This document shows, in pieces, positions 15,484 through 32,944 of a DNA stretch of 64,000 nucleotides (position 1 is the first letter of the stretch; each line of letters begins with the position of its first letter). A program made the position numbers and the translations under genes. Below the pieces are notes generated by a model. That model worked only from the letters and a program-made list of their open reading frames with translations. It ran no database searches and had not been told where the DNA came from. Source of the DNA: a virus; the IMG/VR virus record IMGVR_UViG_3300047564_002169, positions 1 through 64,000 of that record, one strand, 5' to 3'.

Positions 15484-16707
15484 ATGGCTGCTATTACAAC
15501 TAGACAAACCGGCACCACTGGCGTAGATGGAGTGACTAGAAAAGACTCTCCATTAACCAACACTGAAATTGATAATAATTTTATTAATTTAAATAACAAT
15601 AAACTAGAATCATCATGGACAGGTAATACTTCTGTTGTAACGTTAGGTACTGTCACAACTGGTACATGGAATGCTACTACAATATCTGTCGCTAACGGCG
15701 GTACTGGGTTAACATCTACCCCAGCCAACGGCGCTCTTGATATTGGTAATGGAACTGGATTCACTAGAACTACTCTGACTGGAACCGCCAATAGAATTTC
15801 TGTGACCAACGGTTCTGGTTCTATCACTCTTTCTACGCCACAAGACATTGCAACATCATCTAATGTGCAGTTTGGTTCTTTAGGCGTTGGCCAAGCAGCA
15901 TCAGGAACCGCTGGTGACTTGCGAGCAACTACTGCACAGATTACAACTTTAAGTTCAACTACTGCGCAGATTACATCTTTAGGCGTTGGCCAAGCAGCAT
16001 CAGGAACCGCTGGTGACTTGCGAGCAACTACTGCACAGATTACAACTTTAAGTTCAACTACTGCGCAGAGTGGGTCTATAACTTCAACTACTGCGCAGAT
16101 TACATCTTTAGGCGTTGGCACATCAGCATCAGGCACCGCAGGGCAAATACGATTTAGTGACGGTACTATACAATCTACGGCAGCAAGATCAGTACCGTCC
16201 GTACAAGTTTTTACGGCGGGTGGTACATTCACAGTACCAGCTAACGTCACGCGCCTGAAGGTGACCGTTGTAGGTGGTGGTGGTAATGGTGGAGCCAATA
16301 CCGTAGGTAGTTGTAATACCATATACTACGGCGGCGGTGGCGGTGGTGGCGGCAGCTCGCAAAAATGGTTAACTGTTACTCCTGGTGCAACATACACCGT
16401 CACGGTGGGCAGCGCGGGTGGTACATCTTCATTTGGATCTGAATGTTCTGCAACTGGCGGCAGTAATGGTAGTGCCGGCGCACAGGTTAGTGGTGTTGGC
16501 GCGGGAGGTGTCGGTGGTGCTGGTTCCGGTGGTACATTAAATATTGGCGGCAGTTCGGGAACGCCTGGTATTATCGACCGTCCTGTGGGGCGAGGTGGCT
16601 CTTCGATTCTGGGCGGTGGCTCTAATACTGCAGGTCGTTCCTACGGTGGTGGAGGAGGTGGTGGTAGTTATGCTGGTGCCTCTGGCGTTGTCATTGTTGA
16701 ATACTAA
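15484..16707 (+). CDS. tail fibre protein with tandem repeat and glycine-rich tip domain
   Basis: 407 aa. Residues 1-130 are fibre-like (TEIDNNFINLNNN, GTVTTGTWNATTISVANGGTG, the GTWxxxxIxxxNGGTG motif common in phage fibres). Residues about 132-230 contain a 33-residue unit (SLGVGQAASGTAG with ATTAQITTLSS) repeated tandemly, almost perfect at DNA level. From about residue 238 (VFTAGGTFTVPANVTRLKVTVVGGGG, given in part: GTFTVPANV and KVTVVGGGG) the protein becomes a Gly-rich domain with repeated GGGGGG runs, ending GASGVVIVEY. This matches the glycine-rich domain often found at fibre tips, comparable to Gly-rich adhesin loops that set host range. Likely a receptor-binding fibre or its distal subunit. 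Confidence 0.8.
   Translation: MAAITTRQTGTTGVDGVTRKDSPLTNTEIDNNFINLNNNKLESSWTGNTSVVTLGTVTTGTWNATTISVANGGTGLTSTPANGALDIGNGTGFTRTTLTGTANRISVTNGSGSITLSTPQDIATSSNVQFGSLGVGQAASGTAGDLRATTAQITTLSSTTAQITSLGVGQAASGTAGDLRATTAQITTLSSTTAQSGSITSTTAQITSLGVGTSASGTAGQIRFSDGTIQSTAARSVPSVQVFTAGGTFTVPANVTRLKVTVVGGGGNGGANTVGSCNTIYYGGGGGGGGSSQKWLTVTPGATYTVTVGSAGGTSSFGSECSATGGSNGSAGAQVSGVGAGGVGGAGSGGTLNIGGSSGTPGIIDRPVGRGGSSILGGGSNTAGRSYGGGGGGGSYAGASGVVIVEY
15877..16069 (+). repeat. 99-bp in-frame tandem duplication in fibre gene
   Basis: Two copies of a 99-bp unit begin at 15877 and 15976. The first about 94 nt of each copy are identical, and a third partial copy (TCTTTAGGCGTTGGC) starts near 16105. The period is a multiple of three and adds 33 residues per copy, so copy-number change would lengthen or shorten the fibre without frameshift. 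Confidence 0.9.
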
Positions 16708-17288: not shown

Positions 17289-17807
17289 ATGGTAACTATT
17301 AAAAATCTTTTTGTAGACGCGGGAGCGGATTACAGTACCATTATTACTGTGAGTGGATATAACGGTCAAGCATTAGACTTGACCGGATATAGCGCAGCTT
17401 CTCAGCTAAGAAAGTCATATGGTTCTAGTATTTCGTACAATTTTACTGCAAGCATATATAACGCAGTTGAAGGAAAAATTAGTCTTGAGTTGACAGCAAA
17501 CCAGGCTTCAGCTATTCCACCAGGAAGATGGCTGTATGATGTAGAAATAACTTCCCCTACTGGTAAAAAAACTAGAGTAATTGAAGGTGTTGTAACATTA
17601 AATCCAGAAATAACTACGCCAGATGGATCGGCTCCAACTAATATTATTAGCTTAGATGATGTTAACGACATTGACGTTGTGACTAATGGTAAACTTGACG
17701 GTTCAGTTTTAGTATATAAAACCGCAACAAATAAGTGGACTTCTACCAAAATTCTAAATCAACAAATCGTGGATGGTGGTGAATACACGGATGGTGGTGA
17801 AATTTAG
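17289..17807 (+). CDS. virion structural protein, BppU-like N-terminal domain
   Basis: 172 aa. Residues 1-105 form a single beta domain of the type at the N-terminus of receptor-binding or upper baseplate proteins: FVDAGADYSTIITVSG, LDLTGYSAASQLRKSYGS, IPPGRWLYDVEITSPTG and a RVIEGVVTLNPEIT strand. Residues 120-172 are a tail with LDDVNDIDVV and VLVYKTATNKWTS, a pattern seen at the distal end of fibre-attachment proteins. Probably connects a fibre to the baseplate; this is from resemblance and position. Confidence 0.6.
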   Translation: MVTIKNLFVDAGADYSTIITVSGYNGQALDLTGYSAASQLRKSYGSSISYNFTASIYNAVEGKISLELTANQASAIPPGRWLYDVEITSPTGKKTRVIEGVVTLNPEITTPDGSAPTNIISLDDVNDIDVVTNGKLDGSVLVYKTATNKWTSTKILNQQIVDGGEYTDGGEI

Positions 17808-17932: not shown

Positions 17933-19993
17933 ATGGCATCAGTAATTCGTATTAAACGCAGTTCAACATCCGGCGCACCAACAACACTGGGCGCAGGCGA
18001 ACTAGCGTACTCAGCATTAGCAAATAACGGCAGTAACGGCGGTGACATCCTATACATCGGTATGGGAGCAGAAACAGAAGGTAATGCAGCCAATAAAGTT
18101 GTGATCGGTGGTAAGTATTTCACCGATATGATGGACCACACCAAAGGTGTGTTGACTGCAAGTTCTGCATTGATCACTGATAGTAATTCTAAATTAGATA
18201 ACCTAAAAGTCGATAATTTAGACTTAAACGGTAATACGATTAGCAGCACTGATGCAAATGGCGATGTATTCATTACGCCAAATGGTACTGGTAAAACTGT
18301 TATTACCAATCTATACATTGGTGATACAAGCACTTCTCTTTCTGAGTTCATTTTAGACGCTGTCGGTGGAACAATCACTGCTGGTAATGGTATTACTGTC
18401 ACCAACGACGATGGGGCTAATACCTCTACAGTTGCTATTGATACTTCAGTTGTTGCAACATTATCAGACACACAGACATTATCTAACAAAACGTTTGTAG
18501 CACCAGTTCTCGGTGAAGCAACTGCTACTTCTATTAACAAATTAGCAATTACTGCTCCTGCGACTGGCGCAACATTAACCATCGCTGACGGTAAAACGCT
18601 AACAGTAAGCAACACTCTAACATTCACTGGTACTGATGCATCTTCTGTTGCATTTGGTGCTGGTGGTACAGTTGCTTACACTAGCAACAAGCTAAGCGCA
18701 TTTGCTGCTACATCTTCTGCTGAACTGGCTGGTGTTATTTCTGATGAAACTGGTAGCGGTTCTCTAGTTTTCTCAGATAGCCCAACTCTGGTAACCCCAA
18801 CTCTGGGTGCAGCATTAGCTACTAGCATCACTGCAACTTCTGGTAATTTATCGCTTTCTGCTGCTGCAGGTAATAACAACGTTAATCTAGTTCCAACTGG
18901 TACTGGTACTGTTGACGTTGCTTCTAAGCGCATCACTAGCGTTGCTGAACCAACTCAAGCGACTGATGCAGCAACTAAAGGTTATGTTGATTCTGTTGCG
19001 CAAGGTCTGAATGTTAAAGATGCTGTTCGTGCTGCTACTACCGCTGCGCTGACCGCAACATATTCTAATGGCACTTCTGGTGTTGGTGCTACATTAACTA
19101 ACTCTGGTACTCAAGCAGCACTGGTTATTGATGGCGTTAGCTTGGTCGTCGGTAATCGCGTCTTGGTTAAAAATCAAGCCAGCGCATCTGAAAATGGTAT
19201 CTATGTTGTAACTACTGTTGGTTCTGGATCTGTTGACTGGGTATTAACTCGCGCTGCTGATTCTGACCAATCTCCTGCTGGAGAAATTGCAGGCGGTGAC
19301 TTCACTTTCGTTCAAGAAGGTACTGTTAACTTTGACTCTGGTTTTGTAATTACTACAGACGGCGAAATCACTGTTGGTACTACTGCTATTAACTGGGCTC
19401 AGTTCTCTGGCGCTGGCGCTATTGTTGCTGGTGACGGTCTAACTAAAGATGGTAATACACTAAACGTAGTTGGTACAGCAGACCGCATCAGCGTTAGCGC
19501 TAATGCTGTTGATATTGCATCTACTTACGTCGGTCAAGCTAGCATCACTACTTTGGGTACTATCAGCACTGGTACTTGGCAAGGTACTGTTGTTAGCCCA
19601 ACCTATGGTGGTACTGGTGTAAACAACGGTTCTAAAACTATCACTCTTGGTGGTAATCTCACCACTAGCGGTGCGTTTGACACTACGCTGACTGTAACTG
19701 CCGCTACCTCCGTAACTCTGCCAACCACTGGCACTCTGGCAACTCTTGCTGGTACTGAGTCTCTAAGCAACAAGACAATCACTGCTTCTAGCTTTGATGG
19801 TACTACAGTATCTGCTTCTGGTAACGTCACATTCACTAGCACGACAGATGCTACTGCATTGGGAACTGCGCCAGTTGTTATGTCTGGTGGTCTATCTGTA
19901 GCTAAGTCAATGTACGTCGGTACCAATATCACTGGTGCTGGTGCAGCAACTTCTACTCTAGATGGATTTAACATCGACGGCGGTACATACTAA
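17933..19993 (+). CDS. tail fibre protein F1
   Basis: 686 aa, Ser/Thr/Gly-rich beta-repeat fibre. The N-terminus has the IRIKRSSTSGAPTTLGAGELAYS motif of phage fibre attachment domains (IKRSS and GELAYS). Then come TPNGTGKTVITN elements, repeated TQTLSNKT units, VVGTADRISV, GTWQGTVVSPTYGGTG, and a C-terminal VMSGGLSVAKSMYVGTNITG segment. Start ATG 17933 has AGGAGAG eight bases upstream. It is homologous over nearly its whole length to the C-terminal half of the gene at 20425 (same order of motifs; a 62-nt run, 18107-18168, is identical to 22690-22751). Likely a trimeric side fibre. Confidence 0.82.
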   Translation: MASVIRIKRSSTSGAPTTLGAGELAYSALANNGSNGGDILYIGMGAETEGNAANKVVIGGKYFTDMMDHTKGVLTASSALITDSNSKLDNLKVDNLDLNGNTISSTDANGDVFITPNGTGKTVITNLYIGDTSTSLSEFILDAVGGTITAGNGITVTNDDGANTSTVAIDTSVVATLSDTQTLSNKTFVAPVLGEATATSINKLAITAPATGATLTIADGKTLTVSNTLTFTGTDASSVAFGAGGTVAYTSNKLSAFAATSSAELAGVISDETGSGSLVFSDSPTLVTPTLGAALATSITATSGNLSLSAAAGNNNVNLVPTGTGTVDVASKRITSVAEPTQATDAATKGYVDSVAQGLNVKDAVRAATTAALTATYSNGTSGVGATLTNSGTQAALVIDGVSLVVGNRVLVKNQASASENGIYVVTTVGSGSVDWVLTRAADSDQSPAGEIAGGDFTFVQEGTVNFDSGFVITTDGEITVGTTAINWAQFSGAGAIVAGDGLTKDGNTLNVVGTADRISVSANAVDIASTYVGQASITTLGTISTGTWQGTVVSPTYGGTGVNNGSKTITLGGNLTTSGAFDTTLTVTAATSVTLPTTGTLATLAGTESLSNKTITASSFDGTTVSASGNVTFTSTTDATALGTAPVVMSGGLSVAKSMYVGTNITGAGAATSTLDGFNIDGGTY

Positions 19994-20026
19994 ATAATTG
20001 GAGTAAAGGGGCAGTTTTTACTGCCC
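19976..20026 (+). repeat. direct repeat, copy 1 (3' end of F1 and downstream)
   Basis: 51 nt identical to 24556-24606, covering the last codons of F1, a CTAAATA box at 19990-19996, and the first hairpin. The identity in the untranslated part as well as the coding end marks it as a recent duplication rather than convergent protein sequence. Confidence 0.92.
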
Positions 20027-20065
20027 CAATTACTTTAATTGGGGTAAAGGGCAGTTTTACTGCCC
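20008..20065 (+). other. alternative-pairing hairpin cluster
   Basis: GGGGCAGT (20008-20015) pairs with ACTGCCCC (20020-20027), but the same CCCC with AATT (20024-20031) can instead pair with AATTGGGG (20037-20044). A third hairpin follows (20049-20055 with 20059-20065). The two first structures exclude each other. T-runs sit in loops rather than after the stems, so this is not a classical terminator; RNA processing or attenuation is possible. Confidence 0.55.
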
Positions 20066-20088
20066 TAACTACCTTTTTAGTAATCACT

Positions 20089-20178
20089 ATGACAAATAAA
20101 GTTACTACAACACAAATTGGTTTTGTGATGTTATCGCAACCGTCATACAGACTTAAAAGGAATGTAAATGAAACTTGA
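20089..20178 (+). pseudogene. 29-codon remnant of the start of the 24679 gene
   Basis: A short open frame beginning ATGACAAATAAAGTT, identical for its first 15 nt to the start of the fibre gene at 24679, and preceded by the same AACTACCTTTTTAG leader element. After these five codons the sequence is unrelated and it stops at 20176-20178, overlapping the next gene's start at 20168. Best read as a scar left when the F1-fibre-start segment was duplicated and another cassette was joined into it. Confidence 0.75.
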
Positions 20179-20422
20179 TTTTGAAATCGACACATCGCAC
20201 GGTAAATACCGCGACGCATTACATTTACCAGACGACCACTCTTTCACGGAAGAGCAAATCACTCAGATGCAAACAGAACGAGTCAACGCATGGATTTACG
20301 CTATAGAAAATCCACCTGTTCCTCAACCTGAAATTGTTGAAATTGCTGGAGTACGTTACGAAAAGGTTGAGTTTGAAGGGCAAACTCTACTCAAACCCAT
20401 ACTCACTGTAGTCGGAGCGTAA
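20168..20422 (+). CDS. small fibre-associated protein s1 (paralogue of s2)
   Basis: 84 aa. Homologous to the protein at 29549: both begin MK-hydrophobic-DF, share GK/GT-x-x-RDAL, LPDDH, a WxYxIENPP segment, V-x-YEKV, and finish GQTLLKPI. Both genes end exactly 2 nt before the ATG of a fibre gene whose N-terminus is MANRYWVGG, so the pair was moved as a unit. A role as chaperone or adaptor for that fibre type is plausible by analogy with T4 gp38/gp57A, but nothing in the sequence proves it. SD AAAAGGAATG lies upstream of ATG 20168. Confidence 0.65.
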   Translation: MKLDFEIDTSHGKYRDALHLPDDHSFTEEQITQMQTERVNAWIYAIENPPVPQPEIVEIAGVRYEKVEFEGQTLLKPILTVVGA

Positions 20423-20424
20423 TT

Positions 20425-23400
20425 ATGGCTAATCGATATTGGGTAGGTGGCTCCGCACAGTGGAATGCTACTGCCGGGACAAAATGGGCATTCACGTCTA
20501 ACGGATCAGGCGGTGCGCCAGTTCCTACTATTGATGACGATGTGTTTTTTGATGTTAATTCATCAAATGCGAGCGTATCCACCTCGTCCAGCGTCTTGCC
20601 TGCAAAATCGATCAACTGCACTGGATTTACCGGCACAATAACGTTAAGCGGTACAATTAATGTTGCTGGCAATGTTACACTCAGCTCTGGTATGACCTGG
20701 GTATCGGCAGCGAACTCGCTTGTTACGTTTACTGGCTCCGGCACATTAACGACTGCTGGCAAATCCTTTAGTGCTATAGAAGTTAATGGCTCCGGTATTA
20801 CGGTGACGCTTGGCGATGCGTTGAGCATGTCGGGCAGTTATCCGAATGGTGCGCTTACGGTCACGCGGGGTACATTTAATACCGCAAACTATAATGTTAC
20901 GGGCAGCGCGATTGTTTCGTCAAATTCAAATACGAGAACAATCAATTTAGGGTCTTCAACGGTGACGCTCTCTCATAGCACTCCGGTCGACCTGGCTACT
21001 ACCACCAACTTGACATTTAATGCAGGGACTTCGCAAATTACTGCAAGCTCATCAAATCCTACGTTCAATGGCGGCGGATTGACATTTTATAACGTTTCTT
21101 TTACCTACGCGAATACAGGCGCAGCCAATATAAACGGCGCGAACACGTTCAACAATCTGTCGATTACTGCAAATGGTACAGGGTTGAACGCACTTTCTAT
21201 CAGCGCAAATCAAACGGTCAACGGCACCCTCACTTGCGCGGGGGCGTCTGCCACACAACGAGGATTTGTTCGATCAAGCGTACTCGGCACATCGCGCACG
21301 ATTACTGTCGCGACCCTATCTGCAAATGACTCTGATTTCCGCGACATCACGATTGCTGGCAGCGCAGCAGGTGGTTCTCCGACTCGTGCAGGTGATTGCG
21401 GCAATAACTCCGGCATCACGTTTCCAGCTGCAAAAACGGTTTATCGAGTAGGAACCAACACGACATGGTCAGGTTCTAGCTCGTGGGCACTTTCTTCTGG
21501 AGCATCTGGAAGCAATAATAATTTTCCTCTCCCGCAAGACACGGCAGTTATTAACAACGATACCACACTGTCTGGAACGCTGTCTTTTAACTCGACATAC
21601 AACATCGGAACGGTGGATTGTTCTAACAGAACCACCGCAATCACGTTAAACTATAATAACGCACAGTCAACTTTTTATGGTTCGCACGCATTCGGTTCAG
21701 GCGTAACTTCTTTCGGCACTGTAACCCAACGGTTTTCAGGTCGCGGTACGCAGACTTTTACTTCTGCTGGTAAGACAATCACGTTCCCAATTTTGGTAGA
21801 GAAACCTGTCGGCGCGTTTGAACTCGGTGATGCGTTTTCTTCGAGTAGCGGGCTTGAACTTACTGCCGGTACTCTTAATGCTAAGAATTACAACGTCAGT
21901 TGCGCCTACTTCGCCCTAGTCACCTCGGCAGTCATCGTAAGCCCACGAACTTTAACAATGGGTTCAGGTTTGTGGACGTTAACTGGGGCAAATGGAACTG
22001 GTTATGCTGGAGGCGCAGAAGTCTGGAGTTTCGGGTCTAACGCCAGTTTTACATTGAACAAAGACACTGCGAATATTCTGCTCTCCAATACCTCAACATC
22101 GTCACGCACATTTAACGGTCCAGACGGCGCTGTTTATAACAAGCTGACTATTGGCGGGGCAACCGGAGCTTCTACAACAACGATCGGCGCCAGCAACAAA
22201 TCATATACGTTTAGTGAATTGGCTTCAACAAAGACAGTCACGCACACTATAAGTTTTGCTGCGAACCAGACAATCACCAAGTGGACTGTTACAGGCACCT
22301 CTGGTAATATTGTTACCGTCAATAGTACCTCCGCAGGAGTCCGTCGCACGATCACGCTAATTAATGCAACCAGCTCAGCAAACGATGTCAACTACTTAAG
22401 CGTAAAAGACATCGGAGTCACTGATGCGAATAAGTTCTACGTGGGTGCAAATTCTACTAACGGCGGCAACAATCTTAACGTGATTTTTATGACACCGCCA
22501 GCCTATGTTAACCCAACGACCCCAACAATTCGCATTAAACGCAGTTCGACTTCTGGTGACCCTACAACACTTGCTGCGGGCGAACTAGCGTACTCAGCAT
22601 TAGAAAATAATGGTAGCAATGGCGGCGACATCCTATACATCGGTATGGGTACGGAAACGTCAGGTAATGCAGCGAACCATTTTGTAATTGGTGGTAAGTA
22701 TTTCACCGATATGATGGACCACACCAAAGGTGTGTTGACTGCAAGTTCTGCTCTTATCGCGGACTCTAGTTCTAAGTTAGATAATCTAAAAGTTGATAAC
22801 TTAGACTTAAATGGTAATACGGTTAGCAGCACTGATGCGAATGGTGATTTATTCATTACGCCAAATGGTACTGGCAAGACAGTTATTACTAATCCATATA
22901 TTGGCAATAACTCTACTTCTCTTTCTGAGTTCATTTTAGACACTGTTGGTGGTGTTGTTACTGCTGGCACTGGCATCACAGTTACAAATAGTGATGTAAA
23001 TAATACTTCTACCATAGCTATTAGTTCTGCGGTCGTGACGTTAACGGGCACGCAGACATTATCTAACAAAACTCTAGTAGCACCAGTTCTCGGCGCGGCA
23101 ACTGCTACTTCTATTAACAAATTAACAATTACTGCTCCAGCAACTGGTTCAACTCTAACCATCGCTGATGGTAAAACGCTAACCGCGAACAATACATTAA
23201 CATTCACTGGTACTGATACATCTTCTGTCGCGTTTGGTGCTGGCGGTACTGTCGCATATACTAGCAACAAGCTAAGCGCATTCGCCGCTACTACTTCTTC
23301 TGAACTAGCTGGTATTATCACCGATGAAACTGGTAGTGGTTCTCTAGTTTTTGCAAATAGCCCAACCCTGGTATCACCAACACTCGGTGCCGCTTTAGCT

Positions 23401-24573
23401 ACTAGCATTACTGCAACTTCTGGTAGTTTAACAATCGCTGCCGAAACAGGTGATAATAGCGTTAATCTAGTGCCAACCGGAACTGGTACAGTCGACGTTG
23501 CATCGAAGCGAATCACCAATGTAGCTGAACCAACTCAAGCGACTGATGTCGCAACGAAGTCTTATGTTGATGATGTTAAGACTGGACTGATCATCAAAGA
23601 TGCGGTTCGCGCTGCTACTACTGCAGCATTGACTGCCGCGTATTCTAATGGTACTTCTGGTGTTGGCGCTACATTAACTAACTCTGGTACTCAAGCTGCG
23701 CTTGTGGTTGATGGGGTGTCGTTAGTTGCTAACGATCGCGTCTTGGTTAAAAATCAAGCTGATGCGTCTGAAAATGGTATTTACGTTGTAACGAACGCTG
23801 GTTCGGTTTCTACTGACTGGGTATTAACACGTGCTGCTGATTTTGATCAATCTCCTGCCGGAGAGATTGAAGGTGGCGATTTTACTTTCGTTCAAGAAGG
23901 TACTGCTAACGCTGATTCTGGTTTTGTAGTAACCACGAACGGTGCAATCACTGTTGGTACCACTGGTATTAACTGGGCGCAGTTCTCTGGTGCTGGTTCT
24001 ATCGCTGCTGGTGATGGTTTAACCAAAGATGGTAATACACTAAACGTAGTTGGTACAGCAGACCGCATCACAACAACTTCCGACGCTGTTGATATCGCGT
24101 CTACTTACGTCGGTCAATCTAGCATCACTACTCTGGGTACTATCAGTACTGGTACTTGGCAAGCAGATATTATTAATCCAGCTTACGGTGGTACTGGTGT
24201 AAACAACGGGTCTAGCGCGTTCACTCTTGGTGGTAATCTTACTACTAGCGGCGCGTTTAACACTACTTTAACTGTAACAGCTAATACTTCGTTAACGCTA
24301 CCAGTTACTGGTACTATCGCAACTCTTGATGGCACTGAATCATTAAGTAACAAAACAATCACTGCTTCTAGTTTTGATGGTACTACATTATCTGCCTCTG
24401 GTAATATTACGTTTACCAACACGACAGATGCTACTGCGTTGGGAACTGCACCAGTTGTTATGTCTGGTGGTCTGTCTGTAGCTAAAGCCATGTTCGTAGG
24501 CACTAATATTACTGGTGCTGGAGCGGCAACTTCTACTCTAGATGGATTTGTTACTGACGGCGGTACATACTAA
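20425..24573 (+). CDS. chimeric tail fibre F2 (F5-like half fused to F1-like half)
   Basis: 1382 aa. Residues 1 to about 695 match the whole of the fibre at 29788 (MANRYWVGG start, SINCTGFTGTIT, SSNSNTRTINLGSSTVTL, TRAGDCG, PLPQDTAVINNDTTL, TNGGNNLNVIF). Residues about 702-1382 match the whole of F1 (IRIKRSSTSG, GELAYSAL, FTDMMDHTKGVLTAS, and the same C-terminus). The combined length (678 + 686) agrees with the 1382 residues. The junction lies near nt 22505-22528 in a Pro/Thr-rich linker (NPTTPT). So an entire beta-rich fibre has been joined in frame to an entire second fibre, giving one long fibre with an internal former attachment domain. Same 2-nt spacing to the upstream small gene as in the 29549-29788 pair. 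Confidence 0.85.
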   Translation: MANRYWVGGSAQWNATAGTKWAFTSNGSGGAPVPTIDDDVFFDVNSSNASVSTSSSVLPAKSINCTGFTGTITLSGTINVAGNVTLSSGMTWVSAANSLVTFTGSGTLTTAGKSFSAIEVNGSGITVTLGDALSMSGSYPNGALTVTRGTFNTANYNVTGSAIVSSNSNTRTINLGSSTVTLSHSTPVDLATTTNLTFNAGTSQITASSSNPTFNGGGLTFYNVSFTYANTGAANINGANTFNNLSITANGTGLNALSISANQTVNGTLTCAGASATQRGFVRSSVLGTSRTITVATLSANDSDFRDITIAGSAAGGSPTRAGDCGNNSGITFPAAKTVYRVGTNTTWSGSSSWALSSGASGSNNNFPLPQDTAVINNDTTLSGTLSFNSTYNIGTVDCSNRTTAITLNYNNAQSTFYGSHAFGSGVTSFGTVTQRFSGRGTQTFTSAGKTITFPILVEKPVGAFELGDAFSSSSGLELTAGTLNAKNYNVSCAYFALVTSAVIVSPRTLTMGSGLWTLTGANGTGYAGGAEVWSFGSNASFTLNKDTANILLSNTSTSSRTFNGPDGAVYNKLTIGGATGASTTTIGASNKSYTFSELASTKTVTHTISFAANQTITKWTVTGTSGNIVTVNSTSAGVRRTITLINATSSANDVNYLSVKDIGVTDANKFYVGANSTNGGNNLNVIFMTPPAYVNPTTPTIRIKRSSTSGDPTTLAAGELAYSALENNGSNGGDILYIGMGTETSGNAANHFVIGGKYFTDMMDHTKGVLTASSALIADSSSKLDNLKVDNLDLNGNTVSSTDANGDLFITPNGTGKTVITNPYIGNNSTSLSEFILDTVGGVVTAGTGITVTNSDVNNTSTIAISSAVVTLTGTQTLSNKTLVAPVLGAATATSINKLTITAPATGSTLTIADGKTLTANNTLTFTGTDTSSVAFGAGGTVAYTSNKLSAFAATTSSELAGIITDETGSGSLVFANSPTLVSPTLGAALATSITATSGSLTIAAETGDNSVNLVPTGTGTVDVASKRITNVAEPTQATDVATKSYVDDVKTGLIIKDAVRAATTAALTAAYSNGTSGVGATLTNSGTQAALVVDGVSLVANDRVLVKNQADASENGIYVVTNAGSVSTDWVLTRAADFDQSPAGEIEGGDFTFVQEGTANADSGFVVTTNGAITVGTTGINWAQFSGAGSIAAGDGLTKDGNTLNVVGTADRITTTSDAVDIASTYVGQSSITTLGTISTGTWQADIINPAYGGTGVNNGSSAFTLGGNLTTSGAFNTTLTVTANTSLTLPVTGTIATLDGTESLSNKTITASSFDGTTLSASGNITFTNTTDATALGTAPVVMSGGLSVAKAMFVGTNITGAGAATSTLDGFVTDGGTY

Positions 24574-24606
24574 ATAATTGGAGTAAAGGGGCAGTTTTTA
24601 CTGCCC
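24556..24606 (+). repeat. direct repeat, copy 2 (3' end of F2 and downstream)
   Basis: 51 nt identical to 19976-20026. It is followed by a second, diverged unit (CTAAATAATTGAG, then AAAGGGCAG hairpin) at 24621-24656, so the downstream region holds about two tandem copies of a box-plus-hairpin unit. Confidence 0.92.
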
Positions 24607-24620
24607 TTTAACTACCTCTA

Positions 24621-24627
24621 CTAAATA
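24621..24627 (+). promoter_or_regulatory. late-promoter-like CTAAATA box before F3
   Basis: CTAAATA 52 bp upstream of the ATG at 24679. The same box appears at the stop codon of F2 (24570-24576) and of F1 (19990-19996). Each is followed by a GGGCAGT-TTTT-ACTGCC hairpin. Confidence 0.45.
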
Positions 24628-24678
24628 ATTGAGTAAAGGGCAGTTTTTACTGCCTCAACTACCTTTTTAGGAATTATT

Positions 24679-26574
24679 ATGACAAATAAAGTTTTACTGA
24701 AAAAATCTTCAGTTGCAGCAAAAGCTCCCCTAACCACGGACTTAGAATATGGTGAATTAGCAATTAACTACGCTGATGAGAAACTGTATTTTAAAAATTC
24801 GTCAAATGTTATCAAATCTTTCAGCGCGACAGGCGGTTCAGGTACAGTCACATCAATTACTGCCGGCACTGGTTTAACTGGTGGCACTATCACTACTAGC
24901 GGCACTATCGATATTGATACCGCTGTAGTCGCTACACTCACTGGTACTCAGACACTTACTAATAAAACACTAACTGACAGTACCACATATTTTCAAGACG
25001 AGGCTGATAACACTAAGAAACTTCAGTTTCAGCTTTCTGGTATTACTACTGCTACAACAAGAACACTCACAGCCCCAGACGCGTCTGGGACTATTGCTCT
25101 GACCAGCAACAAATTAAGCGCGTTTGCCGCGACCACTTCTGCTGAATTAGCTGGTGTTATTTCTGATGAGACAGGTTCTGGTGCTCTGGTTTTCGGCACT
25201 AGCCCAGCAATCACTACTTCTCTCACTACACCAAGTACTTCATTTGATCTTGTTAATACAACTGCTACTACAGTAAATTTTGCCAATGCTGCAACTACTC
25301 TTTCTATCGGCGCTTCTACTGGCACAACTACTATTAATAACGATATAGTTGTTGCAGGTAACCTAACTGTTAATGGCACAACTACTACATTAAACACCAC
25401 CAATATTACTGTTGATGATATTACTCTAGAACTTGGGGTAGTGACAACGCCAACAGACGTTACTGCTGCGGGTGGCGGTATTATTCTTAAGGGTGCTACG
25501 GATAAAACCATTACGTGGGGTTCAGCGAATGGCTGGACGTCAACGGAGTCTTTTAATCTTGCTTCTGGTAAAACATATAAAATTAATGGAAATGATGTTT
25601 TATCAGGATCAACTCTTGGCTCTGGCGTAACAGCTTCTTCATTAACTAGCGTTGGAACTATTACTTCTGGTACTTGGTCTGGTTCTTTTGGTGCAGTTTC
25701 TGGAGCGAACTTAACATCACTAACTGCTGGTAATCTATCAGGAACAATTCCTTCAGCAGTTTTGGGTAACTCAACCACTTACGTTGGTACTACTGCAGTT
25801 GCATTAAATCGCGCCTCAGCGAACTTAGCGTTAACTGGCATTTCTTCTATTACTCTTCCAGGTTCTTCATCTGGAACTGTTCAGATTGTACCAACTGCAG
25901 AAGTTGGTACTGGTACAGTTTTAACTATTCCAGCGACTACTGGCACGATTGTTACTACTGGCGACAGCGGTACTGTCACATCAACAATGATCGCTGATGG
26001 CACAATCGTAAATGCTGATATTAATGCTTCTGCTGCGATTGCTGTTTCTAAGTTGGCAGCTTCTACTATTTCTGGTGTTACATTAGGTAATAACCTTAAT
26101 GCCCTTACAATCGGTACTGGTCTTTCTGGAACTTCATATAATGGTTCTGGGGCAGTAACCATTGCTATTGATTCTACTGTCGCTACATTAACAGGATCTC
26201 AGACGTTAACGAACAAATCAATAGCTGCGTTCGATCAAAAAACTGGTTCTACTACCGTTGCTAATAATGCAGTCATTCAAGCGTCTGTTTCAACAACTGC
26301 TCAAACTGCGGTAGATACTTTCGCTACTGCAACTTATCGTTCAGCTAAGTATATAATTCAAGTAACTCAGGGAACGAACTATCAAGTTTCTGAGATTATG
26401 GTTATTCATAATGGAACGACTACAACTATTTCTGAATATGCCATGATGAACACCAATGGTTCTCTAGCAACATTCGCAACAGATATTTCTTCTGGAAACG
26501 TAAGACTTCTAGTTACAATGGGTTCTGCAACAGCTGCAACTATAAATATAGCAAGAACGACCATTGTCGTATAA
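24679..26574 (+). CDS. tail fibre protein F3
   Basis: 631 aa. The N-terminus (KVLLKKSSVAAKAPLTTDLEYGELAINYADEKLYFKN, in part: LKKSS and YGELAINY) is the common fibre attachment type. Downstream are TGTQTLTNKT repeats, an FQDEADNTKKLQFQLSG segment that recurs in F4, NLTVNGTTTTLNTTNITV with GGGIILKGATDKTITW (a motif common in aquatic phage fibres), a GTWSGSFGAVSG element, and a C-terminal receptor-type beta domain. Start ATG 24679 follows AGGAATT. Likely a trimeric fibre; a specific receptor cannot be guessed. Confidence 0.8.
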   Translation: MTNKVLLKKSSVAAKAPLTTDLEYGELAINYADEKLYFKNSSNVIKSFSATGGSGTVTSITAGTGLTGGTITTSGTIDIDTAVVATLTGTQTLTNKTLTDSTTYFQDEADNTKKLQFQLSGITTATTRTLTAPDASGTIALTSNKLSAFAATTSAELAGVISDETGSGALVFGTSPAITTSLTTPSTSFDLVNTTATTVNFANAATTLSIGASTGTTTINNDIVVAGNLTVNGTTTTLNTTNITVDDITLELGVVTTPTDVTAAGGGIILKGATDKTITWGSANGWTSTESFNLASGKTYKINGNDVLSGSTLGSGVTASSLTSVGTITSGTWSGSFGAVSGANLTSLTAGNLSGTIPSAVLGNSTTYVGTTAVALNRASANLALTGISSITLPGSSSGTVQIVPTAEVGTGTVLTIPATTGTIVTTGDSGTVTSTMIADGTIVNADINASAAIAVSKLAASTISGVTLGNNLNALTIGTGLSGTSYNGSGAVTIAIDSTVATLTGSQTLTNKSIAAFDQKTGSTTVANNAVIQASVSTTAQTAVDTFATATYRSAKYIIQVTQGTNYQVSEIMVIHNGTTTTISEYAMMNTNGSLATFATDISSGNVRLLVTMGSATAATINIARTTIVV

Positions 26575-26600: not shown

Positions 26601-28799
26601 ATGGCAAACGAATTCGTAGTAAAAAATGGTTTAATTGCACCAAATGTCCAGATTTCTGGTTCAACATCAGGAACAACTACATTAAATTCAGCAGCTACCG
26701 CATCTGGCACATTAACGCTTCCGGCAGCAACTGACACTCTAGTTGGTAAAGCAACCACTGATACTTTAACTAATAAAAGCATCAGCGGTTCTACTAACAC
26801 TTTAACAAATATTGCAAACTCTGCACTAACTAATAGTTCTATTACAATTAATGGATCTGCAATTAGTTTAGGTGGAAGTGCAACTATTACCGCAGCCAAT
26901 CCAAATGCTCTGACAATTGGCACAGGTTTATCTGGCACTTCGTACAACGGTTCATCCGCTGTAACGATTGCCATTGATTCTACAGTAGCTACGCTCACTG
27001 GAACTCAGACACTAACTAACAAAACACTAGTAGACGTAAACACAGAATTTATTGGTTCTGCTAATAACACTAAAAAATTGGGTTTATCCGCGTCTTTAAT
27101 TCCTGCTAGTACAAAGTACACATATTCATTCCCAGTCGTAGCTGCAGACACCAACAACACCGCGAACGCGGCGACGGGTGCTGGTGCCGTTCTTGTCGCA
27201 GATCTTTCAGTACAGACGCTATATCACAAATCACTATCAGACGCCACCACGTTCTTTATTGACGACGTTGATGGTAGTAAGAAAATGCAGTTCCAGTTAT
27301 CTGGCATTGCTGCTGGTACTACCAGAACTATTACTGTACCAAACGCGGACATTAATTTTACCACTGGTTTAGGCGTTGCCAACGGGGGAACCGGCACAAC
27401 GACACTCACAGCAAATAACGTCATCCTTGGTAACGGCACCAGCGCGGTTCAATTTGTTGCACCTGGCGCGAATGGAAACGTATTGACCAGTAATGGCACG
27501 ACGTGGACTTCTGCTGCGCCCACAGGTGGCTCGCAGACATACACTATTGACGGCAAAACTAGCGCGTACACGGTTTTGTCTACAGATCTTGGCAAGATCA
27601 TCAATTGCACAGCTAATACCTTTTCGGTCTCGCTGACGGCGGCGGCTACGCTTGGTTCTGGTTTTAACTGTTGGATTTGGAACACTGGTACAGGGGCTAT
27701 CACTATTGACCCGAGCGCTAGTGAGACTATTGACGGTGCAACTACGCTGATTTTGCGTCAAAACGAAGGTACGCAGGTTGTTTGTGATGGTACAAATTGG
27801 CTGACAGGTGGTAAAAAAACCATGCGAGGGTATACGGAGAACATACCGTCTACCTACGGCAAACCGATTGCATCCGGGGCTGGGGCGATTGCGCTGGGGA
27901 ATAGAAATGGCGACACTGTTTATCTGTCACAGGCTACGGGCACTCGTGCATTCGCCGTAAACGGTTATGCCACCGCCAATTATTCATCAGCAATCGGACA
28001 AACTTCTGCGGGTTTAGGCGCGGAGGCTAATACGGGGGCGGGTGCAATGGCGCTTGGGGGATCTTACGCCTCCGGCGCAGATTCGTTTGCTGCTGCAGTA
28101 GCAACCAATACAAGCAGCTATGGCGCGACCGGGGCGAATAGTATTGCATTTGGATACCAAGCAAAAGGCAGTGGTAGTCAGTCTTCTGCTTTAGGTGGAA
28201 ATACGGCTCTTGCATCTGGTAGTAATTCTGTAGTTGTAGGCGGTTTTACAAACACTGCAAGCGGGACTGGGTCTGTTGCTTTTGGTGGTTATTACAACAC
28301 CGCCTCTGCAAGTTACTCGTATGCATCAGGTTATTACGCCAGCGCCGCTCAATACGGTAAACAAGTGTTTGCCTCGGGTCGATTTGCAGCTGACGGCGAC
28401 GCCCAAGCAGGCAAGATGGTGTTGCGCATTTCCACCACTAACGCAACGCCCGCCGTCATGACCTCGGACGCGGGGGCTGCAAGCACCACTAACCAAGTCA
28501 TCCTCCCCAACGACTCAACTTACGCTTTCCGCATTCTTGTCGTTGCGCGACGCACTGACGCAGATAACGAGAGCGCGGGTTACGAGTTCAGCGGTGTGGT
28601 GGACCGAAACGCCAATGCTGCGTCCACAGCTATTGTCGGCACAGTCGCCAAAACTGTCCTTGCGGAAGACACCTCCGCATGGGATGTCAACGTCACTGCA
28701 GACACCACCAACGGCGGGTTGAAAGTAGAAGTTACTGGCGAAGCGGCTAAGACCATTCGTTGGGTCGCTACTGTCTGGACTTCGGAAGTTACTGGTTAA
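26601..28799 (+). CDS. tail fibre protein F4 with YadA-like head repeats
   Basis: 732 aa. Residues 1-300 repeat the TGTQTLTNKTL and FFIDDVDGSKKMQFQLSG units of F3, then GLGVANGGTGTTTLT. Residues about 310-400 hold a domain with YTIDGKTSAYTVLSTDLGKIINC and GTQVVCDGTNWL, common in phage fibres. From about residue 415 the protein has YadA/Hia-like head repeats (GAGAIALGNR, SSAIGQTSAGLG, GAGAMALGG, NSIAFGYQA, NSVVVGGFTN, GSVAFGGY), which form trimeric beta rolls. The C-terminal 150 residues are a beta domain (KMVLRISTTN, VVARRTDADNESAGYEF) frequent at phage fibre ends. Start ATG 26601, after a GGGAAACGAG ribosome-binding region. Confidence 0.82.
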   Translation: MANEFVVKNGLIAPNVQISGSTSGTTTLNSAATASGTLTLPAATDTLVGKATTDTLTNKSISGSTNTLTNIANSALTNSSITINGSAISLGGSATITAANPNALTIGTGLSGTSYNGSSAVTIAIDSTVATLTGTQTLTNKTLVDVNTEFIGSANNTKKLGLSASLIPASTKYTYSFPVVAADTNNTANAATGAGAVLVADLSVQTLYHKSLSDATTFFIDDVDGSKKMQFQLSGIAAGTTRTITVPNADINFTTGLGVANGGTGTTTLTANNVILGNGTSAVQFVAPGANGNVLTSNGTTWTSAAPTGGSQTYTIDGKTSAYTVLSTDLGKIINCTANTFSVSLTAAATLGSGFNCWIWNTGTGAITIDPSASETIDGATTLILRQNEGTQVVCDGTNWLTGGKKTMRGYTENIPSTYGKPIASGAGAIALGNRNGDTVYLSQATGTRAFAVNGYATANYSSAIGQTSAGLGAEANTGAGAMALGGSYASGADSFAAAVATNTSSYGATGANSIAFGYQAKGSGSQSSALGGNTALASGSNSVVVGGFTNTASGTGSVAFGGYYNTASASYSYASGYYASAAQYGKQVFASGRFAADGDAQAGKMVLRISTTNATPAVMTSDAGAASTTNQVILPNDSTYAFRILVVARRTDADNESAGYEFSGVVDRNANAASTAIVGTVAKTVLAEDTSAWDVNVTADTTNGGLKVEVTGEAAKTIRWVATVWTSEVTG

Positions 28800-29129: not shown

Positions 29130-29528
29130 GTGGCAATTCAAATCAATCATCAGACTAATGAGTTGACTGCCACCACGAATGGTATTAAAGCGAACATAGT
29201 GCCACGCGTCGTTGCTGCGGCAGCAACGACGGGTAACCTCACGATCGCGGGAGACACTACCGATGTATACAAAGCCGAAGGGTTGACTGGCGCGATCACG
29301 TTCCTGCAGCCAAGCGGAACTCCAGTAGACGGTCAAAGACTCATGATTCGCATCGAAGACAATGGGACAGCGCGGGCAATTACTTGGACAACTTCTTCTG
29401 GTGCATTCCGTGAAGTCGGCATCTCGCTACCGACCACCACTGTGCTGGGAAAGGTCACGTATGTCGGTTGCATCTACAACGCCACGGATTTATTTTGGGA
29501 CGCTGTGGCGACCGTGACGCAAGCATAA
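29130..29528 (+). CDS. small fibre-type beta protein
   Basis: 132 aa from GTG at 29130, one base after the previous stop. N-terminus MAIQINHQTNELTAT parallels the preceding gene. The rest reads as a compact beta domain (GNLTIAGDTTDVYKAEGL, GQRLMIRIEDNGTARAITWTTSSG, LGKVTYVGCIYNATDLFWDAVATV), a pattern widespread at the C-termini of phage fibre proteins where it acts as a knob. Here it is a separate gene, possibly a detached fibre tip domain. Confidence 0.6.
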   Translation: MAIQINHQTNELTATTNGIKANIVPRVVAAAATTGNLTIAGDTTDVYKAEGLTGAITFLQPSGTPVDGQRLMIRIEDNGTARAITWTTSSGAFREVGISLPTTTVLGKVTYVGCIYNATDLFWDAVATVTQA

Positions 29529-29548: not shown

Positions 29549-29785
29549 ATGAAAATAGATTTTCAATTTCAAACAAAATATGGGACGTTCCGCGATGCGC
29601 TATCTCTTCCTGATGACCACGACATGACGTCTGAGAAAATTATCGAGATGCAGATCAATCGTTTGAATAATTGGATGTATTTGATTGAAAACCCACCAGA
29701 GCCAGAAATTGTCGATCTTGGTGGTGTGAAGTATGAAAAAGTTGTTTTGGATGGACAAACATTGCTTAAGCCTATTGAGAGTTAA
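29549..29785 (+). CDS. small fibre-associated protein s2 (paralogue of s1)
   Basis: 78 aa from ATG 29549; an upstream in-frame start at 29468 lies inside the previous gene and lacks homology. It aligns along its length with the 20168 protein: MKIDFQFQT, GTFRDALSLPDDHD, IEMQINRLNNWMYLIENPP, GVKYEKVVLDGQTLLKPI. Both copies keep the LPDDH, W-x-Y-x-IENPP and YEKV-x-x-x-GQTLLKPI elements, which are probably the functional core. Immediately followed by a MANRYWVGG fibre gene after 2 nt. See the s1 entry for the inferred chaperone or adaptor role. Confidence 0.68.
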   Translation: MKIDFQFQTKYGTFRDALSLPDDHDMTSEKIIEMQINRLNNWMYLIENPPEPEIVDLGGVKYEKVVLDGQTLLKPIES

Positions 29786-29787
29786 AC

Positions 29788-31824
29788 ATGGCCAATCGCT
29801 ATTGGGTCGGTGGAACTGCTTCTTGGGACGGCACTGCTGGTACAAAATGGGCAGCTACATCTAATGGTTCTGGTGGAGAGACAGTTCCTACAAGTGCCGA
29901 CGATGTATTTTTCGATGCATCTTCTACCGGTACCGTCACGATCGCCGCTGGCAACACAGGCGCGAAGTCGATCAACTGCACCGGATTTACCGGAACCATC
30001 ACAGGAACAGCCGCGATCACCGTCGCAGGCAGCATCACGCTTGTTTCGGGGATGACGTACACGCATACCGACACGGTCACGATAAGCGGTACAGGCACAT
30101 TAACGACTGCAGGTAAGACGTTTAGTGGATTAACCATTAACGGTTCAGGAATCACAGTAACTCTGGGTGATGCATTAAATGTGTCTACTGCCAGATCTGT
30201 CACCATCACTCAAGGCACTTTTGACACAGCAAACTACAACGTTACTGCCCTTCAACTTGTTTCGTCGAATTCAAATACAAGAACCATCAATCTAGGATCT
30301 TCAACAGTAACATTAGCTGCCAGCGGAGCGTCAATTAACTTCGTAACAGGAACAAATTTAACATTTAACGCTGGCACTTCTCAAGTTAACCTACCCGCCA
30401 CCAGTGCAGGTATTTTCGGAACTCAGACATATTACAACGTTTCTTTTACTGGGTCGGGAGCAGGAACTCGCACTATTAACGCCGCGAACACATTCAACAA
30501 CCTCACTCTGACTGCTAGCTCGACTGGGTTAAGTGAACTTTCTGTTAGCGCAAATCAAACCATCAACGGTACTTTTACCTGCGCCGGGACAACCGTGACA
30601 CAACGAGGGTTTGTTCGCTCCAACACTATTGGGACATCGCGTACTATTACTGCAGCAACTATTTCGGCAAATGATTGCGACTTCCGTGACATCACAATCG
30701 CTGGTGGAGCGGCAGGCAGTTCTCCGACTCGCGCAGGTGACTGCGGAGGAAACTCTGGTATAACATTTCCATCTGCAAAAACGGTTTATCGCGTAGGAAC
30801 CAACACAAACTGGACGACCGCTGCGTCGTGGGCACCCAGTTCTGGCGGTACAGGAGCTAGCGAGAATTTCCCGCTCCCGCAGGATACTGCGGTCATCAAC
30901 AACGACACGACGCTGACCGGCACTTTGTCGTTAAATGGCACGTACAACGTCGGAACACTTGATGCGTCCGCTAGGACTACCGGGATCACGCTCAGTTTTG
31001 CAGGAAATACATATTACGGCAACTTCACGCTTGCATCCGGGGTAACAGTCTCTGGTACGGGCATCCAGACGTTTTCCGGTCGCGGTACGCAGACTTTTAC
31101 TTCTGCTGGTAAAACAATTACGTTCCCAATCACGGTAGACAAACCTGCCGGGACGTTTGAATTGGGCGACGCATTTGCGTCGAGCAACACCGTCACGCAC
31201 ACTCGCGGCACGCTTGATGCAAAAAACTACGCTGTAACATGTACGCAGTTCAATTCAAGCAACAGCAACACTCGAACCGTTACTATGGGTTCCGGGTTGT
31301 GGACGTTGAGCGGAACCGGAAACGTCTGGACGTTAACTACTGCAACTGGGCTTACGTTCAATAAGGGATCAGCCGACGTATTACTGTCAAACACCAGCAC
31401 AACTAGTCGCGGATTCTCTGGCGGCGGGCAATCTTACAATAAGTTGACGATCGGCGGACCCTCTGGGTCGTCCCTAACAGCAATAAATCAGGTAAACACA
31501 TTTACAGAATTAGCCTCTACAAAAACCGTTGCGCACACAATTCAGTTTAGCGCAAACCAAACGATCACAACGTGGACCGCCACTGGCACTTCTGGAAACG
31601 TTGTCACTGTCAACAGCAGCTCCGCAGGCACCCGCCGCACGATCACACTCACCAATAGCACCGCAGGAACGGTAGACTACATGTCTGTCACTGACATCGG
31701 CATTACTAACGCCAACCGCTTTTACGTCGGCACGAATTCGACAAATGGTGGCAACAACCTGAACGTTATTTTTGCTGCTGGTCCTAGTCCCTCGACCGGA
31801 AACATGTTCTTCATGTTCCAATAA
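29788..31824 (+). CDS. tail fibre protein F5
   Basis: 678 aa, almost entirely beta and Thr/Ser/Gly-rich, starting MANRYWVGGTASWDGTAGTKW (in part: MANRYWVGG). Repeated elements FSGRGTQTFTSAGKTITFP, SSNSNTRTVTMGSGLWTL, NTSTTSRGF and ITINGSGITVTLGDAL suggest a beta-helix built of stacked coils, as in fibre and polysaccharide-binding proteins. Its whole length is homologous to residues 1-695 of F2. In F2 this is fused to another fibre; here it ends with a short GPSPSTGNMFFMFQ tail. No catalytic Asp/Glu cluster of depolymerases is evident, so adhesion rather than hydrolysis is the better guess. Confidence 0.78.
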   Translation: MANRYWVGGTASWDGTAGTKWAATSNGSGGETVPTSADDVFFDASSTGTVTIAAGNTGAKSINCTGFTGTITGTAAITVAGSITLVSGMTYTHTDTVTISGTGTLTTAGKTFSGLTINGSGITVTLGDALNVSTARSVTITQGTFDTANYNVTALQLVSSNSNTRTINLGSSTVTLAASGASINFVTGTNLTFNAGTSQVNLPATSAGIFGTQTYYNVSFTGSGAGTRTINAANTFNNLTLTASSTGLSELSVSANQTINGTFTCAGTTVTQRGFVRSNTIGTSRTITAATISANDCDFRDITIAGGAAGSSPTRAGDCGGNSGITFPSAKTVYRVGTNTNWTTAASWAPSSGGTGASENFPLPQDTAVINNDTTLTGTLSLNGTYNVGTLDASARTTGITLSFAGNTYYGNFTLASGVTVSGTGIQTFSGRGTQTFTSAGKTITFPITVDKPAGTFELGDAFASSNTVTHTRGTLDAKNYAVTCTQFNSSNSNTRTVTMGSGLWTLSGTGNVWTLTTATGLTFNKGSADVLLSNTSTTSRGFSGGGQSYNKLTIGGPSGSSLTAINQVNTFTELASTKTVAHTIQFSANQTITTWTATGTSGNVVTVNSSSAGTRRTITLTNSTAGTVDYMSVTDIGITNANRFYVGTNSTNGGNNLNVIFAAGPSPSTGNMFFMFQ

Positions 31825-31984: not shown

Positions 31985-32944
31985 ATGCCTGTTGCATCTA
32001 GAGAACAATTAAAACGTTATGCACTGCGCGCTCTAGGTGCACCAGTGCTTGAAATAAATGTGGACGAAGATCAGTTAGAAGATCGTATTGATGAGGCATT
32101 AGATTATTGGAACCTTTACCACTACGAAGGCGTTGAACAAATTTACATGAAGCAACCGATTCGCGCTTCTGAGATCATTCTCAATACCCCTGTAGCTGGT
32201 AATTATCAAATTGCAGAGAAAATAACAGGAGCGGTTTCTGGCGCTGTTGCAGAAGTGGTTCGTGAATCAACTCGAACTTCTTCAGGAACATTGTTGCTAA
32301 TTAAAAATATCGTTGGAACATTTCAAGTTGGAGAAACAATCACTGGTTCTAATTCTGGACAAACAGCGACTACTGTTTCTATTACGCTACGAGAATACGA
32401 CAAAAGATATATCGAGATTCCAGATTATGTTTATGGTGTGACTAAAATTTTAGGTATGGGACAAGCAAGTTCTTCGAAGAACATTTTCGATTTGCAATAT
32501 CAGCTGCGACTAAATGACTTATACGACTTAACTTCGACCAGCCTTATCTACTATAAAACAGTCATGAGTCACTTAGCTCTATTAGATTTAGAGTTAAACG
32601 GACATCAATTATTCAGATTTAATCGTCTTTCTAATCGTTTGTACTTAGACGCAAATTGGGCGACTGACTTTATTCTTGGCGACCATATTATTATCCAAGG
32701 ATATCGTGCTATGGATCCAGCTACTTACAGTCGCGTGTTTAATGAACCCTGGTTAAAACATTACGTCACCGCATTATTCAAAAAACAATGGGCGACTAAT
32801 ATAAAGAAATTCTCTGGAATTCAACTTCCTGGTGGAGTCACTCTCGACGGAGATAAACTATACGATGAAGCCGTCACTGAAATTAAAGAACTTGAAGATG
32901 AACTGCAGAATAAAGCATCTCCATTAGACTTTTTCCTTGGATAA
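31985..32944 (+). CDS. 13: gp13-like neck protein
   Basis: 319 aa, near T4 gp13 (309 aa). The N-terminus is typical of aquatic T4-like gp13: REQLKRYALRALGAPVLEINVDEDQLEDRIDEALDYW (in part: LGAPVLEINVDEDQ and DRIDEALDYW). Residues about 60-135 carry an insert with two VGETITGSxSGQTA-type units, then YIEIPDYVYGVTKILGM resumes the conserved core, followed by LNDLYDLTS and DPATYSRVFNEPWLKHYVTALFKKQWATNIKKFSG. gp13 and gp14 close the filled head and form the neck to which the tail binds. Next to gp14 and gp15 as in T4. Confidence 0.9.
   Translation: MPVASREQLKRYALRALGAPVLEINVDEDQLEDRIDEALDYWNLYHYEGVEQIYMKQPIRASEIILNTPVAGNYQIAEKITGAVSGAVAEVVRESTRTSSGTLLLIKNIVGTFQVGETITGSNSGQTATTVSITLREYDKRYIEIPDYVYGVTKILGMGQASSSKNIFDLQYQLRLNDLYDLTSTSLIYYKTVMSHLALLDLELNGHQLFRFNRLSNRLYLDANWATDFILGDHIIIQGYRAMDPATYSRVFNEPWLKHYVTALFKKQWATNIKKFSGIQLPGGVTLDGDKLYDEAVTEIKELEDELQNKASPLDFFLG

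Follow-up and report, generated by a model that had tools for sequence, protein, structure and literature searches.

The gene F2 raises the question of how a single open reading frame came to encode near-whole versions of two different proteins, A and C, both of which are also encoded separately in the same window, whether such a gene is real and what its product may do. The window analysed comprises bases 1-64,000 of the 98,586-base record of an uncultured virus. Its structural locus is T4-like, with the neck, tail sheath, portal, capsid and Ad2 and Hc2 connector genes located near the fibre genes, while the major capsid protein (gp23) is 63% identical to that of Pelagibacter phage HTVC008M and of Methylophilales phage Melnitz. 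A run of fibre-like genes spans from p17289 to the neck gene at 31985, in the order p17289, A, a relic of gene D, a probable relic of a 29130-like gene, s, F2 (a C-type half followed by an A-type half, C'::A'), D, E, 28829, 29130, a second s, C and neck (Table 1). No Pfam family was found over the cut-off for A, C or F2. Elsewhere in the window, the fibre-like gene at 15484-16707 contains a perfect 99-nt tandem repeat (1.9 copies; 15877-16069), which probably represents a recent in-frame expansion.

Table 1. Features of the fibre locus surrounding F2; positions are those of the window.
Feature	Coordinates	Strand	Remarks
p17289, small fibre-locus protein	17289..17807	+	weak BppU_N; phrog_1084 / phrog_3304
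A, tail-fibre protein encoded separately, 686 aa; N-terminal domain conserved, DGGTY at the C-terminus	17933..19993	+	
62-nt run within A	18107..18168	+	exact match to 22690-22751
Duplicated 3' flank of A; hairpin terminator repeats, ends in the D relic	19994..20103	+	local score 133
Five-codon relic of D, ATGACAAATAAAGTT	20089..20103		
Probable relic, 3' end of a 29130-like gene, YYNTNWFCDVIATVIQT and stop	20103..20156	+	score 40 against family C-termini
s, small gene, first copy	20168..20422	+	paralogue of 29549-29785
F2, single gene, 1382 aa	20425..24573	+	
F2a, C-type half, residues 1-693	20425..22503	+	67% identical to C, its sister in the 99-row tree
F2 joint, residues 694-701, YVNPTTPT	22504..22527	+	no overlapping 12-mer repeated
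F2b, A-type half, residues 702-1382; normally N-terminal domain internal, DGGTY C-terminal	22528..24573	+	
62-nt run within F2b	22690..22751	+	exact match to 18107-18168
D, intact fibre-like gene	24679..26574	+	D-like gene directly 3' of A in most relatives
E, fibre-like gene	26601..28799	+	weak YadA-head repeat
29130, small structural-type gene	29130..29528	+	phrog_3030
s, second copy	29549..29785	+	paralogue of the gene at 20168
C, protein encoded separately, 678 aa; two repeats of ~330 aa within the chain, hydrophobic tail at the C-terminus	29788..31824	+	

The frame of F2 is open from stop to stop over all 1398 codons. Alignment of the three proteins and their DNA matched F2a to residues 1-667 of C (446 of 666 positions identical) and F2b to residues 5-686 of A, with 576 of 681 residues identical (84.6%) and 82% identity at the DNA level. 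The claim of the earlier note that F2 is an in-frame fusion of proteins also found separately is thus upheld by these alignments, as well as by the trees and the relatives described below. Its description of the partners as two complete fibres holds to the extent that both are nearly whole, but F2 lacks the last residues of C, PSTGNMFFMFQ, which include its hydrophobic tail, and the first four of A, MASV. F2b retains both of the conserved ends of A, while F2a is devoid of a C-type tail. The joint was correctly described as a Pro/Thr linker and lies within the layout NVIF-MTPPAYVN-PTTPT-IRIKRSS (broader joint, TPPAYVNPTTPT; peptide stretch across it, TPPAYVNPTTPTIR), in which the spacer of C is retained to about the start of its hydrophobic tail, GNMFFMFQ. 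The 62-nt run that had been reported as shared by A and F2b is indeed identical, and codon-order shuffling mostly gives shorter ones (mean 34, P = 0.0022).

Proteins related to A provide the context for the second half of F2. The conserved domain that opens A (~124 residues) is N-terminal in 100 of 101 distinct ORFs whose 5' end is intact, as it is in the separate A; the sole exception is F2, where it occurs internally from residue 702. The C-terminus takes the form DGG-x-aromatic in 86 of the 93 relatives whose 3' end is complete, with near variants in the other seven, and F2 likewise ends in this A-type motif (VTDGGTY). This end (19976-19990 and 24556-24570 in the window) is kept in several A-type relatives though the sequence preceding it is unrelated, and p17289 terminates in DGGEYTDGGEI (near 17780-17804). 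A p17289 homologue is found ahead of 70 of 100 A-type ORFs and a D-like gene at most 600 nt 3' of the A-type ORF in 78 of 93 relatives. Neither a second A-type ORF nor an ORF with both domains occurs at any other A-type locus in this set of 93. In the cultured phage Melnitz, A is annotated as a tail fiber and the next tail-fibre gene adjoins it as a separate gene, while in the cultured Limnohabitans phage DC31 a p17289-like gene, A, a short D-like gene, s and a C-type gene follow one another, all separate. The unfused state was therefore found in all other related phages compared, cultured isolates included. The C-type ORF of DC31 (L345 1-4120) is unannotated, comprises at least 1370 codons and runs past the end of the record.

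The first half of F2 similarly displays the features of the C-type family. An s-like gene is located directly upstream of 96 of the 108 C-type genes, as is the first s copy upstream of F2a, while the s-C cassette is absent from the DNA covered at 44 of the 45 A-type loci. F2a starts with the RYWVGG repeat, and two or more repeats of ~330 aa are a trait of the family, the internal repeat having been measured on C. C itself is internally duplicated (residues 1-330 against 331-667; score 396, shuffle maximum 171), and its longer relatives seem to hold more repeats. By a loose rule, a short hydrophobic tail (NMFLMF, NFFLLF or similar) ends 64 of the 101 complete C-type ORFs, examples being those at 31780-31821 in the window and in L005, L006, L014 and L053. 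Other C-type proteins end in extension domains, with LRSFTExRRF and DxQxPxW as recurring ends, and these terminal tails and recurring ends may be docking peptides.

Searches beyond these families located the fusion nowhere else. A pattern for the joint matched, among the matches listed from 2.9 million viral contigs, the window and only one further contig, which is identical to it; these scans are pattern-based, so that rarer or diverged fusions may escape them. Comparison of the joint region with bacterial and archaeal genomes revealed no relative. The F2 product was thus found in no other distinct virus among those searched.

The duplication extends beyond the fused genes, which the earlier note had missed, and includes both the 3' flank of A and the small gene ahead of F2. 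Over 110 nt, the flank of A matches that of F2 (24574-24693) through the first five codons of D, where the best of 2000 shuffles reached a local score of 30. Downstream of this relic of D is the second, weaker relic (shuffle P 0.002), for which a relative of the 29130 gene is, judging by sequence similarity, the likely source.

The two halves of F2 differ in their divergence from their partners. For A and F2b, dN is 0.096 and dS 0.62 (dN/dS about 0.15), a sign of purifying selection on F2b that speaks against its decay, while dS is saturated both for C and F2a and for the two s copies. In the trees, F2b groups with A as its sister (support 100/99, and 99/94 for the N-terminal domain). F2a and C are likewise sisters (SH-aLRT 95), joined by a short branch of 0.053, and the path from C to L004 (0.63) is about equal to that from C to F2a (0.64). 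In its simple form, a single duplication that gave both halves the same age was rejected, as dS differs strongly between the pairs.

It is moderately probable that F2, as a genuine single gene under selection, derives from tandem doubling of the block from A to C, followed by a deletion in the first copy. The order of events, as we infer it, would begin with a block of A, D, E and small genes, s and C being set in tandem with another copy of itself, so that the reading frame would pass from the end of the first C into the beginning of the second A, giving C'::A'. A later deletion in the first copy would have removed the redundant middle between the fifth codon of D and the 3' terminus of the 29130-like gene, leaving A, the relics, s, C'::A', D, E and the following genes to s and C. 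Relatives keep A separate, mostly followed by D, and the presence of the order A-D-s-C in DC31 supports the doubling of such a block. The difference between a dS of 0.62 and saturation, however, counts against a single simple event, as do the short branch that groups C with F2a and the weakness of the 29130-like relic. Given the unequal divergence, exchange between related phages, or later conversion, would be needed in addition. Divergence is far lower between A and F2b than between C and F2a, which makes unequal exchange the probable origin of the join, with two related co-infecting phages that carried different C alleles as the favoured source. Alternatively, an internal duplication may have been followed by homogenisation or conversion of the A copies.

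A somewhat unlikely course would be the separate gain of an s-C' cassette from another phage and its insertion between duplicated copies of A and D, with the fusion formed at the edge of the insertion and no doubling of the whole block. The frequent pairing of s with C-type ORFs and the near absence of the cassette from A-type loci suggest that it is mobile, and the saturated divergence of the s and C pairs would fit such an acquisition. This would, however, require the insertion site to coincide precisely with the joint of an A-to-D duplication; F2a is the sister of the window's own C and the A-D-s-C unit already exists in DC31. Block doubling followed by deletion is consequently retained as the preferred account.

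With regard to the product of F2, the single-chain model of C is a self-contained, all-beta solenoid (pLDDT 93.9), which matches predicted parallel beta-helix phage proteins with a TM-score of 0.87, while a fold search of the PDB with this model retrieved nothing below an E value of 0.001. Modelled as a single chain across the joint, the A half gives a poor model (pLDDT 53), as would be expected if it were to fold only as an intertwined trimer. As the halves thus appear to be different kinds of protein, a long fibre built from two similar units is probably not the right view, and the two receptor-binding units suggested earlier would be putative. An internal attachment domain, which had been offered as the other option, is plausible, given that the domain is N-terminal in 100 of 101 relatives but internal in F2. 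The position and conservation of this A-type N-terminal domain make it a plausible virion-docking domain. F2 would then most likely assemble as an A-type fibre by way of its A half, alongside the separate A and C, and a flexible Pro/Thr linker would attach the C-type beta-solenoid covalently at the N-terminal end of this half. More tentatively, F2 may be a covalent hybrid in which an A-type trimer docks via the internal domain and three solenoids extend from its base, so that block doubling would have provided in one step a virion with A, C and a tethered combination of the two.

These proposals presume that F2 would be expressed as one chain. It is improbable that it is instead made as two proteins through internal initiation near codons 686-689 (MTPPAYVN...), by which the halves would also occur apart. 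An in-frame ATG is present at codon 689, just before the linker, and a GTG, whose anti-SD pairing is moderate (-5.0 kcal/mol), lies three codons earlier at 686. The pairing at ATG 689 is, however, weak (-2.4 kcal/mol, against -7.3 kcal/mol at the start of A itself), and, with no stop between the halves, the fused chain would still be produced. Some separate F2b is possible given the pairing at the two codons, while the single chain remains the preferred product.

Although the record comes from an uncultured virus, it is highly improbable that F2 is a chimera in which an assembler joined the C-type gene of one phage to the A-type gene of another, since no 12-mer overlapping the joint is repeated within the window, the longest identity between A and F2b is the 62-nt run situated about 160 nt inside F2b, the frame is open throughout, the block is flanked by a relic and an identical second contig crosses the joint. 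This contig, IMGVR_UViG_3300044701_000074 (24,781 bases), is 100% identical over 22,034 bases that include all of F2, although its sample may not be independent. Both halves also carry hundreds of differences from their partners with the frame intact. Assembly collapse at the 62-nt identity was likewise rejected, as this run lies inside F2b rather than at the joint. F2 is thus unlikely to be an artefact.

Phage fibres are known to change through domain swaps or repeats, and a literature search on fused tail-fibre genes retrieved only the description of Enterococcus phage EfV12-phi1, in which in-frame duplications of 1.8 kb occurred within a tail-fibre gene under coevolution (PMC6365445). As in F2, the fibre gene was lengthened in frame by a kilobase-scale coding duplication, and the phage was still functional, but a single 1.8-kb segment was repeated inside the gene, whereas F2 joins two different near-whole proteins across a gene boundary. 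Duplications in the tail-fibre adhesin of T4 widen the host range (Tetart et al. 1996, as cited in PMC9004378). According to that citation, duplication in a T4-type fibre similarly alters recognition, involving a small domain within one adhesin in place of the two near-whole proteins of F2. The T5-like phages DT57C and DT571/2 carry branched LtfA/LtfB lateral fibres, for which instability between two-gene and one-gene states has been reported (PMC4728585). There, two recognition proteins are placed on one fibre; LtfA and LtfB are, however, separate chains, one docked on the other, whereas F2 is one open frame and both of its parents are kept separately. With the A-type tail fibres of Melnitz, Mosig and DC31 (phrog_15769), F2b shares the N-terminal domain, the middle and the DGGTY end, although the domain is N-terminal in those proteins and internal in F2. 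F2a is predicted, from the model of C, to share the two-repeat solenoid of the RYWVGG beta-solenoid proteins (BFVD 'Parallel beta-helix repeat' A0A6J5T8W4), which also bear varied C-terminal extensions, an A-type fibre as the extension being found only in F2. Fibre-gene shuffling as such is therefore already known, and what is new in F2 is the presence of two different near-whole proteins in one chain. Near-whole members of two protein families have been joined by what is apparently one block-level event; the parental genes are kept nearby, and its traces, a duplicated terminator and the five-codon remnant of a gene, are still legible. F2 thus represents a natural test of the addition of a module at the N-terminal, normally docking, side of a fibre, and offers a path by which fibre systems could evolve from two genes to one.
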